From positions 1 to 43,926 of IMG/VR virus record IMGVR_UViG_3300031576_000111: 43,926 nucleotides of DNA. One strand, given 5' to 3'. Positions 4,842-36,885 of this stretch are shown here, piece after piece (the first letter of the stretch is position 1; every line of letters begins with the position of its first letter). A program made the position numbers and the translations under genes. The notes beneath the pieces were generated by a model, which did not search any database, was not told the origin of the DNA, and worked only from the letters and a program-made list of their open reading frames with translations. This stretch comes from a virus.

Positions 4842-5098
4842 TGCCACAAATGAGCAAGCCCTTGTGGGCCGCACGACGCCGCTTGCAGGAGATGCCCAAG
4901 GAGAGGCCTGTGGTGCGCGAAGAGAAACCACACGTTGAAATGCGATCGCCGTCCTATGCGGGGGTGGACGTCAATCATCCCCGCATCGTGGAGGCGATCA
5001 CGGCACTCTCGAAGCAGGGGAAGCGCGTCGAAGAAATTGCCAAGATTGTCGGGATGCCTGCGGAGGTGATTCGCAAGCATCAAGACGGCGCGTCCTAG
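4841..5098 (+). CDS. Small protein with helix-turn-helix-like C-terminus
   Basis: An 85-residue protein. The first 45 residues are basic and proline-rich; the last 40 include VEEIAKIVGMPAEVIRKH, which reads like the two helices of a simple helix-turn-helix. Its start overlaps the scaffold stop (TAATG), so it belongs to the head operon. It could be a DNA-binding or head-completion factor; I do not recognise a named family. Confidence 0.7.
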   Translation: MPQMSKPLWAARRRLQEMPKERPVVREEKPHVEMRSPSYAGVDVNHPRIVEAITALSKQGKRVEEIAKIVGMPAEVIRKHQDGAS

Positions 5099-5276
5099 CT
5101 TCTTTATCTGACCGGGCAGCCCCCCTCGTGGGGTCCGGTGGTGCGCAGCAGAAATGCTGCCGTCTGCGCCGCGTGATGGCGTAGGTGGGTCCGCGTGAGC
5201 GGGCAGCCCTCCGGGCGGTTGCGGTTCCCGCCAAATAGACCGCGACACAACCACGATACGGAGGGGGTAGTATCCC
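5099..5276 (+). other. Structured leader before the capsid gene
   Basis: This 178-base gap is the only sizeable break in the head operon. It can fold into a compound hairpin at 5111-5139 (ACCGG pairs with CCGGT, enclosing CCCC-TCGT-GGGG) and a second at 5143-5169 (GCGCAG with CTGCGC). A third GC-rich fold is possible at about 5199-5235. A ribosome site GGAGGG at 5260-5265 precedes the capsid ATG by 11 bases. No T-run follows any hairpin. It may process or stabilise the abundant capsid message, or hold a promoter I cannot recognise. Confidence 0.5.
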
Positions 5277-6278
5277 ATGAGCACATTCACGCGACTGCTG
5301 AAACGGCTTTCGGTTTCAGTCGGTTATCTCTTGAATCAGCGCGGGAGCGTGACCGTGGATCAGTCGTGGGTCTATCGGTTTCACGACATGATCCACCTGA
5401 CCTACCAGCAGATGTCGTCCCTGGTGCAGGGTCGAGTCTTGCCAGGGGTCATTCACCGCGATGTCAAGGCCCAGGTCGATTTCTTTGATCGGATGGGCAA
5501 CGTCATTGCGAATGACGTAATCTCGCCCTTTGGACAAACCAAGATCCTCAATCCCGACCATTCCCGGAGAGCCACGCGGCTGCAATCGTCTGATGCGGCA
5601 GTCCTCGTGTCGGATGAGCACACGCTGCGGGCGATGGTGGACCCGACGAATGACTATCGGGACACCATTGTGGCGGCCCTCGTGCGCCGGGGTGACAAGC
5701 ACATCATCGACGCCGCCACAGGTACGGCTGAGACCGCCAGTGTGACGGCGGGATCTGGCACCATCACGTTTGGGACACAAACCCTGCCGTCGGGTCAGAA
5801 GATCGGCGGGGCCACCGCGATAGACCTGGCCAGGATCATCAACTCGGCAGAGCTGTTGAGCAAGGCGGCGGTGCCGAACGGGGCTGGCGAGCGGGTGTTT
5901 TTCTACTCGCCTGGGCAGCTCCGGGACATTCTGGCCATCACGCAGGCGTCGTCCTCGGACTTCACCAAGAACATGATCCATGACCGAGGCACGATCAACG
6001 GCGTGGATTGGGAAGGATTCACCTGGGTGGAGATCCCCGATGTAGTCGATCCAGCCCTCACGGTGCTCCAGCGTATGCTGACGCTGACCTCGACCACGCG
6101 CAGTTGCATCGCCATGTATCGGGGTGCCGTGGGTCTGGCCATCGGTCGGGAGATCAACACCCGGATCAACGAGCGGCCCGATCTCAACAACAGCATTCAG
6201 GTCCGTTCGCTGATGATGATGTCATCCGTCCGGCTGTTTGAGGGCGGTGTCGTTCAAGTGGATACGCTAGAAAACTAA
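5277..6278 (+). CDS. Major capsid protein
   Basis: A 333-residue coat protein expected to adopt the HK97 fold and form the icosahedral shell. The segment around residues 100-150 (RATRLQSSDAAVLVSDEH, then VDPTNDYRDTIVAALVRRGD) is typical of the phage capsid family found in podoviruses with T7-like connectors. The C-terminal part has the repeated hydrophobic beta pattern expected of the A-domain (RGAVGLAIGREI, VRSLMMMSSVRLFEGGVV). It follows scaffold in the standard order, has a strong ribosome site, and is of typical length. Confidence 0.93.
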   Translation: MSTFTRLLKRLSVSVGYLLNQRGSVTVDQSWVYRFHDMIHLTYQQMSSLVQGRVLPGVIHRDVKAQVDFFDRMGNVIANDVISPFGQTKILNPDHSRRATRLQSSDAAVLVSDEHTLRAMVDPTNDYRDTIVAALVRRGDKHIIDAATGTAETASVTAGSGTITFGTQTLPSGQKIGGATAIDLARIINSAELLSKAAVPNGAGERVFFYSPGQLRDILAITQASSSDFTKNMIHDRGTINGVDWEGFTWVEIPDVVDPALTVLQRMLTLTSTTRSCIAMYRGAVGLAIGREINTRINERPDLNNSIQVRSLMMMSSVRLFEGGVVQVDTLEN

Positions 6279-28103: not shown

Positions 28104-28465
28104 TTGTCCTCGCCTGCCTCACCCTCGCCTGGTCCTGGCCCGCCCATTGGCAACCGAACGGCCCGGCACAACGCGCCATGGCTACGATCACCAAGGTCGA
28201 CAATGGGGACATCTATCGAGGACTATATGTCGTCTACCGGGACGGGACGGCGGTGCATTGGGTGGAGGACGCGCAGGGGGGCTTTCGGCCTATTGTGGTT
28301 GATCAGGTCCCGGACGCTCCGTGTGATGATTTTTGGCGGGATATGGCGGTGATTTCAGCGGGACTCGAAAGCGTTAGGCCGAGAGAAGCGTGGGGCGAAT
28401 CAGAGTGGGTGCTAGGGCCGAGCCAGCATTCGGCGTGTCAGCCGATCCAGGGGGAGCCGGCATAG
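28076..28465 (+). CDS. Exported protein of unknown function
   Basis: A protein of 129 residues from GTG 28076 (GGAGG 11 bases upstream), with a hydrophobic export segment (LTLVVLACLTLAWSWPA) and a mature part with a YVVYRDGTAVHWVEDAQGG strand pair and two cysteines. An alternative GTG at 28046 lengthens it by 10 residues. It is the last late plus-strand gene; its end overlaps the convergent HNH gene. Confidence 0.55.
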   Translation: MSHPQRLTLVVLACLTLAWSWPAHWQPNGPAQRAMATITKVDNGDIYRGLYVVYRDGTAVHWVEDAQGGFRPIVVDQVPDAPCDDFWRDMAVISAGLESVRPREAWGESEWVLGPSQHSACQPIQGEPA

Positions 28466-29004
28466 CTGTTGTCAATATCCCCTGGACATGTTGACAATAT
28501 GGCCGGTGCCATCGGGTCACAGTGGGAGGTAGGAGCGATGTCGTCGCTTGACCCGTGGCTCATCGGCACCCGGCCAGTGCCGTTTCTATAATTCCCCATC
28601 CTGATATTTCTGCAAACACGACAAAGGCGGTTCCCATCGCGTCGAATGTATGTATTCGCCTCATTAAATTCGTGTCCGTTTTTGCAATGAGTTTTTCTGG
28701 CATGCATAGCCGTAGCACCAACACCACGAAGAATGTTTTCTTTCCTAGTAACTGGTTCAAGATGGCTTGGATTGACGCAAAGAGGATTTCGACAAAGATG
28801 GTCTATGGTCAAACCAGAAGGGATAGGTCCAACCAAAGCCTCATATGCGTATCTATGTGCAAGAACAGATTTACCGTTAATCTCAAAATGACCATACGGA
28901 CCAGTACTATGACCCGTCTTCTTTGCCCCAGTCCAGATCCAACACGAATCAGTTTTCTCTACCCTGGGCCAGAACCTCTCTTCCGGTGATCCGTATCGGC
29001 CCAC
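28438..29004 (-). CDS. HNH endonuclease
   Basis: A 188-residue nuclease with the HNH_3 core: LAHRYAYEALVG, LTIDHLCRNPLCVNPSHLE (the histidine pair and asparagine) and VTRKENILRG. It is followed by a zinc-knuckle-like part (CKNGHEF with a second C-x-x-C). The last 35 residues (SSDDIAPTS onward) look like read-out beyond the domain and coincide with the operon-end inverted repeat. GTG 29004 overlaps the preceding stop (TAGTG). It may be a free-standing homing endonuclease or a DNA-processing enzyme. Confidence 0.88.
   Translation of the reverse strand: MGRYGSPEERFWPRVEKTDSCWIWTGAKKTGHSTGPYGHFEINGKSVLAHRYAYEALVGPIPSGLTIDHLCRNPLCVNPSHLEPVTRKENILRGVGATAMHARKTHCKNGHEFNEANTYIRRDGNRLCRVCRNIRMGNYRNGTGRVPMSHGSSDDIAPTSHCDPMAPAILSTCPGDIDNSYAGSPWIG
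28457..28506. other. Bulged inverted repeat at the junction of the two operons
   Basis: CCGGC (28457-28461) pairs with GCCGG (28502-28506), ATA with TAT, and TTGTCAA (28469-28475) with TTGACAA (28491-28497), leaving a 4-base bulge and a 15-base loop. It lies between the convergent late and early minus operons and could terminate or stabilise both messages. There is no clean T-run, so an intrinsic terminator is unproven. Confidence 0.4.
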
Positions 29005-32519: not shown

Positions 32520-32891
32520 TTATTTGCGTTTCTCAAAATCCACTGTTTCCGAATAATAGCCATTGGATTCTCCGTACCATCGAATTGTCACATGCCCCCT
32601 GTTCGTTGTGAGGTTATAGAATGTCCAAGTAAAGCTCTCCTGATACTCTTTTGTGATGCCAGAAGGATTCTCATTGCTGGTATCCTCCCTTGCGTCGAGA
32701 ATTGGTGTGCCAATTAAATCCGCTACGTCTCCGCATACGTCCTCAACGAGGACGGATTCACATCAATCCCGTTCGTGGTGCATGTTGAATGCAGATCCAT
32801 CGGTGCAGTAAAAGACAACCAATTCGGAACCAGCCCCAAGGCCTTGAATAGTGTCTAGTGTTTTTCCAATCAAATTACTAATATTGCCCAT
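32520..32891 (-). CDS. DUF7448-like protein with an in-frame UGA (possible selenoprotein or nonsense mutation)
   Basis: A 123-codon gene (TAATG-coupled to its neighbour, AGGAGG seven bases before ATG 32891) is open except for one TGA at 32765-32763, codon 43. The sequence before ([20 protein letters not shown]) and after ([46 protein letters not shown]) matches the phage DUF7448-type family throughout. In relatives I recall, the motif is H-E-x-D-C-C-E-x-V; here the UGA replaces the first of the two cysteines. A perfect stem-loop (7 bp, 3-base loop starting with G) follows immediately. Cys-to-UGA with a downstream hairpin is the mark of selenoproteins; a point nonsense mutation or a sequence error are the rivals. 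Confidence 0.7.
32738..32754 (-). promoter_or_regulatory. SECIS-like hairpin after in-frame UGA
   Basis: On the minus strand, CGTCCTC-GTT-GAGGACG forms a perfect 7-bp stem with a GTT loop. It begins 8 bases after the UGA at 32763, and the loop starts 15 bases after it, close to the 16-37 range I recall for bacterial SECIS elements. A guanosine opens the loop, as expected. The pairing falls on codons for V-L-V-E-D, so conservation alone could mimic it. Confidence 0.45.
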
Positions 32892-32995
32892 TAGTCATCC
32901 TCCTTCGTGAATTGTTTGCGAAATGTGACCCCAAGCCAGATCAGCCCGACAATGGAGCCAATGAGCCAAATGGCGATGAGGATGGGGGCGGTCAT
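32891..32995 (-). CDS. 34-residue membrane peptide
   Basis: Reads MTAPILIAIWLIGSIVGLIW followed by a basic end (RKQFTKEDD). It has one membrane helix, overlaps the HNH stop (ATGA) upstream and the next gene (TAATG) downstream. Its GGAGG near the end serves as the ribosome site for the next gene. Function unknown. Confidence 0.6.
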   Translation of the reverse strand: MTAPILIAIWLIGSIVGLIWLGVTFRKQFTKEDD

Positions 32996-33411
32996 TTGAG
33001 CCTCCGAATATATCCTTTGCCGGGACTGGGATTATCAACAAGCCTTGCGGCTATGAGTGCTTGGCGATGATGGTTGATATGACATGCTCTACATAGCGGC
33101 TCTATGTTCCGTGAATCAAGGTTGAGTCTGTTTTCGTCCCGATGATGCAACAGATACGATGGATTGCCGCACCGATTACACTGACCGTTTCTGAGGTCTG
33201 CATATCGCTGTTTCGTTCTCCACATCTTTGCTGCTTCGCTAGGGTTAGATTTCACGGCCCACGCATTTCCTCTCATGTCGGGTCGTGGCTTCTTGGCAGC
33301 ACAACTCCTTGAGCAGAACCTTCTTCCTCGTTTGACCCGAAAGGGCTTGGCAAAGAATGTCTTTCTGCATCGTTCACAGGTAACGGGTAGAAAGAGTGCT
33401 GGCCTACCCAT
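32992..33411 (-). CDS. HNH endonuclease with N-terminal zinc finger
   Basis: A 139-residue protein from ATG 33411, which lies inside the preceding gene's last codons. It has an N-terminal zinc-finger-like region (CERCRKTFFAKPFRV then FCSRSC) and a C-terminal HNH domain (CNRCGNPSYLLHHRDENRLN then RNIEPLCRACHINHHRQ), with paired cysteines bracketing the catalytic histidines. Longer starts at 33507 extend into the exonuclease gene and are unlikely. Could process DNA ends or be a mobile nuclease. Confidence 0.85.
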   Translation of the reverse strand: MGRPALFLPVTCERCRKTFFAKPFRVKRGRRFCSRSCAAKKPRPDMRGNAWAVKSNPSEAAKMWRTKQRYADLRNGQCNRCGNPSYLLHHRDENRLNLDSRNIEPLCRACHINHHRQALIAARLVDNPSPGKGYIRRLK

Positions 33412-34138
33412 AGCATCGCTGCCATTCCCACAGCTTCTTCGCTGCGAGAAACACGTCAAAGAGGCCAGGGTCATCCGGAACGGAGACAACCTCGAAGGCG
33501 GGATCATCTAGCGTCTTTGGGAGACGAACGATCCTGCCTTGAAACTCACCAGGGCTTCGATCTAACATCTCAGATCTGGCGATTCGATATGCCCAATTTT
33601 GCAAGTACGCCTCTGGCCAGACTTTCTTGCCCGTTTTGTAGTCCACGATTGTTGGTGCGCCCAGATCCTCACCCTCAAGGTCAAGCGTGCCCGCAAATTC
33701 GTACCGCTTGCTGTATACGGTTATCTCCGTTTGTATGGGTCGGAAGCCGCTTTTCTTTCTCCAATCCTCCCAAGCCATGTACGCCAGCTCCGCCTCATCC
33801 TTCACTTGTGGACGAGGCCCTACCACAAGACCCAATTCTCTCTTCGTGCCCCATTCAATGAGTGCATGGGCCTGTGATCCAATCTCCCTGGCCTTCTCCT
33901 TCTCTACTTCTCCAGCCTTCTTCGCCTTGGCAAGATCCTGAACGCTGGCGATGACGGCATCTGGCCCTTCTGGATGCTGGGGGTCTGTAAGAATGTCATG
34001 GAGGGCCGCCAGGAGATAGATCCGCTCCATCTTGGCCATCCACGGTCCAAGAGCTGGCTTGGAAATGACAGACAGGATAGTGGTGACAGATGGCAATCGC
34101 TGTCCATCTATCTCGTACCAGCGTTCATCCCGAGCCAT
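33404..34138 (-). CDS. PD-(D/E)XK exonuclease (RecB/Cas4-like)
   Basis: A 244-residue nuclease. Motifs: IGSQAHALIEWG (conserved H near residue 92), FAGTLDLEGED with D152-type metal site, and IVDYKTGKKVWPEAYLQNWAY, which gives the D-x-K and Q of the RecB-like nuclease. The N-terminus (LPSVTTILSVISKPAL) is typical of phage exonucleases of this group. Beside the recombination-associated gene at 34138-34848, it would act as the exonuclease of a phage recombination pair. TGATG coupling links the two. Confidence 0.85.
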   Translation of the reverse strand: MARDERWYEIDGQRLPSVTTILSVISKPALGPWMAKMERIYLLAALHDILTDPQHPEGPDAVIASVQDLAKAKKAGEVEKEKAREIGSQAHALIEWGTKRELGLVVGPRPQVKDEAELAYMAWEDWRKKSGFRPIQTEITVYSKRYEFAGTLDLEGEDLGAPTIVDYKTGKKVWPEAYLQNWAYRIARSEMLDRSPGEFQGRIVRLPKTLDDPAFEVVSVPDDPGLFDVFLAAKKLWEWQRCYG

Positions 34139-35744: not shown

Positions 35745-36563
35745 CTACGTTTCCTTTGCGATGTCAACATCCGGCCAGGGAAACGTAGTTCGCCTCGCCT
35801 CTTCGCAGGTATTGACACCTGGGGGAACGCGGAGTGCGTGAACAAAGCCCGTTGATGGACAAATCACCTTGAGGAGATAGATGGGCTCCGCGTCCACGTC
35901 CTTCTCAATGCGCCGGAGTTCCATGCCGTTATCAGAATGGAGCAGAGTATTGGGCAATACGGCCATGATGCGATGATACCCAAGGCCCTGGATGAGGACG
36001 CGCCGCCGTTCAGCGTTTTTTTCGGTGAGCAACCAGGCGTGATCCCAATGCTCGGAGTGGACCTTGCCCCATGCGTCAGGAATACGCACACCCCGCCAGA
36101 AATAATAGCATTCGCCGTTTGGATATTCGACGGCTGGGACTCCATCGCCATGGAGGTCTTGTCCTCGGAAACGAAATAGAGGTCTTTGCATGGCAAAGAT
36201 CTCTCTCTCTTGAATCCAATAAATGAAGAGACCAGCTTCGAAAGCATCTACAATGGGCATCCATATGGCACGAAGTTTCGGATAGTCTTTGTGATCGCTT
36301 AAAGCATTACTGATGGCCGCATCCCAGGCCGCATCCCGGGCCGCACCCCAGGCCGCACCCCAGGCCGCACCCCGGGCCGCACCCCAGGCCGCACTATTGA
36401 TGCTTTTGATAAACCGCACAGGACGGATAGGTAAATTAAGTGCCGTAAGGTGTGCGGCAAACGCCTGCTCTATGTTCCCAATATCTGGAAGATAGGGTCG
36501 CGTCTGATCCACAGACCGCAGCCTATCAATGATCGCCTGTGCTTCCGCGTTAATCAACGACAC
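35745..36563 (-). CDS. DUF6745-like protein with Ala-Trp repeat
   Basis: A 272-residue protein. GTG 36563 with GGTGGA upstream is the chosen start; a TTG at 36602 is less likely. Residues near 57-83 contain a four-residue repeat of GAAW or GAAR/DAAW type, coded by a 12-base tandem repeat. The C-terminal part holds GVPAVEYPNGECYYFWRGV, EKNAERRRVLIQGLG and HALRVPPGVNTCEEARR, in the style of DUF6745 proteins. The preceding gene at 36550 is its usual partner type. Function unknown; phage and plasmid carriage suggests an accessory role. Confidence 0.7.
   Translation of the reverse strand: MSLINAEAQAIIDRLRSVDQTRPYLPDIGNIEQAFAAHLTALNLPIRPVRFIKSINSAAWGAARGAAWGAAWGAARDAAWDAAISNALSDHKDYPKLRAIWMPIVDAFEAGLFIYWIQEREIFAMQRPLFRFRGQDLHGDGVPAVEYPNGECYYFWRGVRIPDAWGKVHSEHWDHAWLLTEKNAERRRVLIQGLGYHRIMAVLPNTLLHSDNGMELRRIEKDVDAEPIYLLKVICPSTGFVHALRVPPGVNTCEEARRTTFPWPDVDIAKET
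36315..36392 (-). repeat. 12-bp tandem repeat coding for Ala-Trp units
   Basis: Six copies of GGCCGCACCCCA-type units (variants at two positions) plus a half copy, in frame inside the DUF6745-like gene, encode GAAW/GAAR repeats. Near identity of the units means copy number is likely to vary by slippage. Confidence 0.8.
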
Positions 36564-36885
36564 GATTCCACCCTTCTGGCTGGTATTCGCGTTGCGGTGC
36601 AAACTCGTAGAGCGGAAAATCGGTCAAAGGCACGGGGTCGTGATGGGTCCCTGGTATGTACGCAGCACCAGCATCTTTGTGGACCAGTCGTGGCTGTGCC
36701 GAAATCGGTTTGACATAGATGGTCCCGTCCTTTTCGTACAGCTCGCAGTCTTCGACTTCATGCACATGATTGGTGACCTCGCCCCGTGCAAGGATGGTGT
36801 GGTCCAGCCTCCGCGCACCCTTGGGCAACTCTTGGCACCCCGCAAGAAACACATCACCTTGTCGATAGACCTTTTTTGTTTTCAT
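36550..36885 (-). CDS. RQGD-type accessory protein partnered with the DUF6745-like gene
   Basis: A 111-residue protein with YRQGDVFLAGCQELPKGAR at the start, LARGEVTNHVHEV (the conserved GE-x-T-x-H-x-H) in the middle and REYQPEGWNRVVD at the end. These match the small proteins encoded beside DUF6745-like genes on plasmids and phages, whose role is unknown. A GGAGATC site precedes ATG 36885, and its stop overlaps the next gene. Confidence 0.75.
   Translation of the reverse strand: MKTKKVYRQGDVFLAGCQELPKGARRLDHTILARGEVTNHVHEVEDCELYEKDGTIYVKPISAQPRLVHKDAGAAYIPGTHHDPVPLTDFPLYEFAPQREYQPEGWNRVVD

Follow-up and report, generated by a model that had tools for sequence, protein, structure and literature searches.

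A phage-borne DUF7448 gene with an in-frame UGA at a conserved cysteine codon is a probable selenoprotein gene

The phage DNA analysed here (a record of 43,926 bases, taken at its full length and called the window below) carries on its minus strand a DUF7448 gene with a single in-frame UGA, at codon 43. This is very probably a selenoprotein gene, in which we infer that selenium is inserted at the UGA; for the UGA form of DUF7448 as a whole, the same reading, again with a predicted insertion of selenium, is held with greater confidence still. The initial annotation of the window had proposed selenocysteine at this codon, and the proposal is supported by an exchange of Cys and UGA among relatives, by SECIS-type hairpins, by the recurrence of the UGA, and by selA, selB, and selD genes in a genome linked to one copy. 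The features concerned are as follows.

32520..32891, minus strand: DUF7448 gene of 123 codons and a TAA stop, interrupted by a single in-frame UGA; it matches PF24240 and phrog_2650
32763..32765, minus strand: codon 43, a UGA, with selenocysteine predicted; of 221 distinct relatives, 211 have Cys here and 10 have UGA
32760..32762, minus strand: Cys44 (TGT), which is predicted to form a U-C pair with the selenocysteine; of 221 distinct relatives, 218 have Cys here and none has UGA
32738..32754, minus strand: SECIS-like hairpin, with a 7-bp stem (32754-32748 with 32744-32738) and a GUU loop (32747-32745)
32899..32904, minus strand: Shine-Dalgarno sequence AGGAGG, separated by 7 nt from the start codon ATG (32889-32891)

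Minus-strand translation confirmed that the 123-codon gene is intact save for the one UGA, as the initial annotation had it: with TGA read as sense, there is no further stop before the TAA. Residues 6-119 of the read-through product match Pfam PF24240 (DUF7448) with E 6.3e-27 and 94.5 bits, where the gathering cut-off is 27 bits, and the match spans positions 2-104 of the 104 in the profile; the match to phrog_2650 has E 6.6e-43. The conservation claimed for the sequence downstream of the UGA is borne out by this match to the whole domain and by the residues invariant in a 65-sequence alignment, which the window copy keeps (C44, T88, Y92, G99, W105, G107, S109, G111, Y113, and E115). The record has terminase, head-tail adaptor, major head, tail, and replication genes, and it uses the standard code: an alternative code with UGA as sense throughout was rejected, UGA being the terminator of 10 of the 22 window genes examined. 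Elsewhere in the window, two putative HNH-type homing endonuclease genes were recognised by eye (32992-33507 and 28438-29004; one adjoins the DUF7448 gene), and a 285-residue protein (35745-36602) contains a run of Ala-Ala-Trp-Gly/Asp repeats (AAWGAARGAAWGAAWGAARDAAWDAA).

An IMG/VR search blind to the codon in question gave 80 DUF7448 loci, with TGT or TGC at the aligned position in 73 and TGA in 7, the latter of three sequence types; a second family search then enlarged the comparison to 221 distinct DUF7448 proteins. No residue other than Cys (211 proteins) or UGA (10) occurs at codon 43 of these, and codon 44 is Cys in 218. In the family motif, D-C-C-E, C43 is invariant except for UGA, so the Cys that the initial annotation gave for this position is indeed found in every relative without the UGA. 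The window shares its UGA with nine other distinct copies, and all ten are otherwise open. The sole other stop among the 221 is a TAG in one relative (L041, match at 5001-5354), in frame at a conserved Gln codon; a recoding of this TAG as Gln was considered and rejected, since ORF cover is no better with TAG recoding. Among 116 proteins sampled regardless of codon 43, UGA occurs in five, every time at codon 43; with about 14 codons per gene lying one step from UGA, the probability of this by chance is ~2e-6, assuming equal mutability and independence.

Pattern scans of IMG/VR gave a similar picture. A search for [DN]-UGA-Cys followed by a degenerate downstream context returned 12 contigs, all DUF7448 and all open on either side of the UGA (the corresponding pattern picks up 53 of the 80 loci, roughly two thirds of the family), and the Cys-Cys version returned more than 120 matches. 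Matched-control scans of the same collection for UGA at the second Cys, for UAA or UAG at codon 43, and for UGA at the invariant Trp of R-W-x-G-E-S-N-G each gave zero matches; random stops in related phages, which the initial annotation had named as evidence that would count against selenocysteine, were thus not seen in these scans. Bacterial and archaeal genomes yielded one Asp-UGA-Cys match in DUF7448, here called L093, in a Desulfobacterales MAG. A tree of the UGA and Cys states needs eight changes, but because its forks are weak, and also compatible with fewer, the number of independent UGA origins may be less than eight. One 103-kb phage contig (IMGVR_UViG_3300033489_000004) has both a UGA copy (L083) and a Cys copy (L039) of DUF7448, along with several tRNA genes.

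The hairpin described after the UGA is present in the window, with its 7-bp stem (CGTCCTC/GAGGACG) and GTT loop; its MFE is -13.5 to -13.7 kcal/mol (z -2.0), and 98.8% of synonymous-codon shuffles fold less stably (P 0.012). The resemblance to a bacterial SECIS holds for stem and loop and is imperfect in spacing: the distance from the UGA to the start of the loop is 15 nt, which is one nt short of the published range. That model (PMC13188914) specifies a loop of 3-9 nt, a stem of 4-16 bp, a spacing of 16-37 nt, and an MFE of at most -7.5, and requires a G within the first two loop bases. A bacterial SECIS check, as the initial annotation had suggested, finds the hairpin in the UGA copies and rarely in the Cys copies. 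Since the UGA copies are related sequences, the P values of the hairpin tests are too small and serve as guides only: with the lower spacing bound set to 15, 9 of 10 UGA copies pass versus 26 of 141 Cys copies (Fisher 7e-6), and the longest unbroken stem with a G in the loop is 6-12 bp in all UGA copies versus mostly 3-5 bp in Cys copies (rank test 1.4e-6). With a lower bound of 16 the counts are the same, the window then passing solely by another hairpin, a weaker one at 31 nt. Eight of the ten UGA copies fit the published model throughout, as does the main hairpin of the window except in spacing; in the remaining copy, L082, the stem is good but its energy of -7.3 kcal/mol is outside the limit.

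In each of the ten UGA copies the stem is unbroken over 6-12 bp, a G stands among the first two loop bases, and the hairpin follows the UGA by 15-20 nt; the registers are few: the loop lies 17, 18, or 20 nt after the UGA, or 15 in the window. Within the 18-nt register group 94% of cells pair, with double compensatory changes in 6 of 9 pairs; in the 20-nt group 100% of cells pair, with such changes in 2 of 7. In synonymous shuffles, six of the ten UGA copies stand at P 0.03 or lower, while for L082, L086, L087, and L092 the result is not significant (a shuffle folds as well in over 5% of trials). The hairpin overlaps conserved codons. An Rfam search with it gave no relevant match.

No tRNA-Sec was found in the window, which agrees with the earlier remark that this phage lacks SelC, nor in 12 other phage records with the UGA form. 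Sub-threshold matches in these records are Leu or Tyr tRNAs, and a phage-borne tRNA-Sec was rejected on that ground. We therefore infer that the UGA phages depend on the Sec machinery of their hosts. As to the host genes, selABCD, whose presence the initial annotation had made a point to check, the genome linked to L093 was searched: the Desulfobacterales MAG has selA (609 bits), selB (389 bits), and a selD with an in-frame UGA of its own, and selC is the part of the set that was not found, tRNA-Sec not being seen among the 150 of 553 candidates scored in this fragmentary assembly. The neighbours of L093 are phage- or prophage-like, and include a metallo-beta-lactamase fold and, by eye, RecT-like and SbcC-like proteins. 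For the window itself, a DNA-similarity search for the host found no near phage; its tail protein has 32-37% identity to podovirus proteins and 40-45% to a 4-kb contig from one genome in the phylum of the Desulfobacterales MAG, identities too weak for naming a host. Taken over the family, phages have probably turned the active-site Cys of DUF7448 into Sec repeatedly, using host machinery; this would make DUF7448 a selenoprotein family encoded by phages, its UGA form being confined to those whose hosts use selenium (often anaerobes), and one phage would keep both a Cys and a Sec copy.

Under the proposed mechanism, ribosomes arriving at UGA-43 of the phage mRNA would insert selenocysteine, the in-frame stem-loop just downstream recruiting host SelB charged with Sec-tRNA(Sec), and SelA, SelC, and SelD likewise being supplied by the host. 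The product would be a full-length DUF7448 protein in which a Sec-Cys pair replaces the Cys-Cys pair of the family.

Several other readings of the UGA can be considered. A plain nonsense mutation or a sequencing error, in a decaying or dispensable gene of which only the 42-residue N-terminal fragment is made, would require one step from TGC or TGT to TGA; it would be in keeping with the isolate phages examined (Pseudomonas, Bacillus, Sinorhizobium, E. coli, and others), all of which have Cys at codon 43, and the stray TAG of L041 indicates that occasional nonsense does occur in the family. Such changes would strike anywhere, however, and yet a single codon holds all ten UGAs, and neither the neighbouring Cys nor the Trp has any. 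The frames behind the UGA are also open and conserved (the UGA copies share 44-70% identity with L087), the hairpins of the UGA copies are absent from most Cys copies, and one UGA version (L088) is common to four separate contigs and another (L082) to two. Simple loss of the gene product by nonsense or error is accordingly considered quite improbable.

Some bacteria recode Sec codons to Cys, and a tRNA-Cys with anticodon UCA, or some other non-Sec suppressor, would give an ordinary Cys-Cys product, as might be expected from the Cys in all other relatives. This is very improbable: a suppressor needs no SECIS hairpin and would permit UGA at the second Cys as well, no suppressor tRNA is found in the window, the tRNA candidates scored in phages and MAG are of ordinary kinds (Leu, Ser, Tyr, Trp, and similar), and the linked genome encodes SelA, SelB, and the UGA-containing SelD. 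In some viruses, hairpins 3' of stops can stimulate read-through, and the UGA and hairpin might be imagined to set the ratio of truncated to full-length product by such programmed read-through, the residue inserted being unimportant. The identity of residue 43 does matter, however, since the codon is only ever Cys or UGA in 221 proteins; moreover UAA and UAG never occur there, and the loop G and the spacing match the SECIS rule over a generic hairpin. Regulated termination of this kind is extremely improbable, and insertion of selenocysteine is the preferred reading.

A confident structure model of the DUF7448 protein (pLDDT 92.8, pTM 0.85) is mostly beta, with C43-C44 in a loop preceding the strand at 46-53. 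Neither sequence search nor fold search found relatives among solved structures. A fold search of BFVD returns DUF7448 proteins, some of them from giant viruses (mimivirus, Hokovirus, Tupanvirus, and Pithovirus), which extends the family beyond phages. In isolate phages, DUF7448 genes (L248, L253, L241, L249, and L251) were observed among or next to genes for ribonucleotide reductase, thioredoxin, or glutaredoxin, which offers a lead to function: contexts include a position between ribonucleotide reductase subunits with thioredoxin close by, and others near glutaredoxin, near anaerobic reductase genes, or near thyX. In Bacillus phage Goe3 (L241), an unannotated, intact DUF7448 gene (1501-1842) lies between reductase alpha and thioredoxin genes. 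Behind the UGA copy L081 lies a thymidylate-synthase-like gene. The link to ribonucleotide reduction is striking in isolate phages, but a general one was rejected, a reductase being nearby at only 2 of the 80 IMG/VR loci.

Sec generally takes the place of catalytic Cys. By analogy with this general rule, the U/C-C pair would be redox-active, or, less likely, metal-binding. Our best guess is that DUF7448 is a putative dithiol/selenol redox protein of the early phage programme, with metal binding as the alternative.

A catalogue exists of bacterial selenoprotein families that show Cys/Sec exchange and carry an in-frame bacterial SECIS (PMC13188914; method in PMC1088965). The UGA form of DUF7448 is like them in the alignment of its in-frame UGA with a conserved Cys of homologues, in its conserved flanks, in the hairpin that follows, which has a G among its first two loop bases, and in the Sec machinery (selA, selB, and selD) of the linked genome; it is unlike them in being carried by phages, on contigs without tRNA-Sec. 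The main text of that 2026 prokaryotic selenoproteome review names neither DUF7448/PF24240 nor phages (PMC13188914), and no NCBIfam model covers DUF7448. The Cys form (PF24240, phrog_2650, D-C-C-E) belongs to the same family, with the domain intact, and the window differs from it by UGA for Cys43.

Among viruses, molluscum contagiosum and fowlpox virus carry captured glutathione peroxidase selenoproteins (PMC8310308). These too are encoded by the virus and use host Sec machinery, as is predicted for DUF7448, but in eukaryotic viruses, with a eukaryotic SECIS and a captured host enzyme family, whereas DUF7448 is a phage family with a bacterial-type hairpin. Genes for tRNA-Sec have been reported in Basilisk-like phages (PMC6145125) and huge phages (PMC10747093), and likewise point to an involvement of phages with selenocysteine; these reports, in the parts available, describe a tRNA and name no selenoprotein, while the UGA form of DUF7448 provides a protein and no phage tRNA-Sec. 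No report of an earlier phage selenoprotein was found in the open full-text literature.

Catalogued selenoproteins come from bacteria, archaea, and eukaryotes, and captured ones are carried by a few animal viruses. If the selenocysteine reading of DUF7448 is true, the fate of these phages would be tied to the selenium metabolism of their hosts, and the UGA would be a clue to host range, as the host must decode Sec. Gene callers would truncate the UGA genes. Cys43 would be marked as the residue that matters chemically in DUF7448, a large phage family that includes members from E. coli K-12 phages; with such a residue and such members, the function of the family would be testable.
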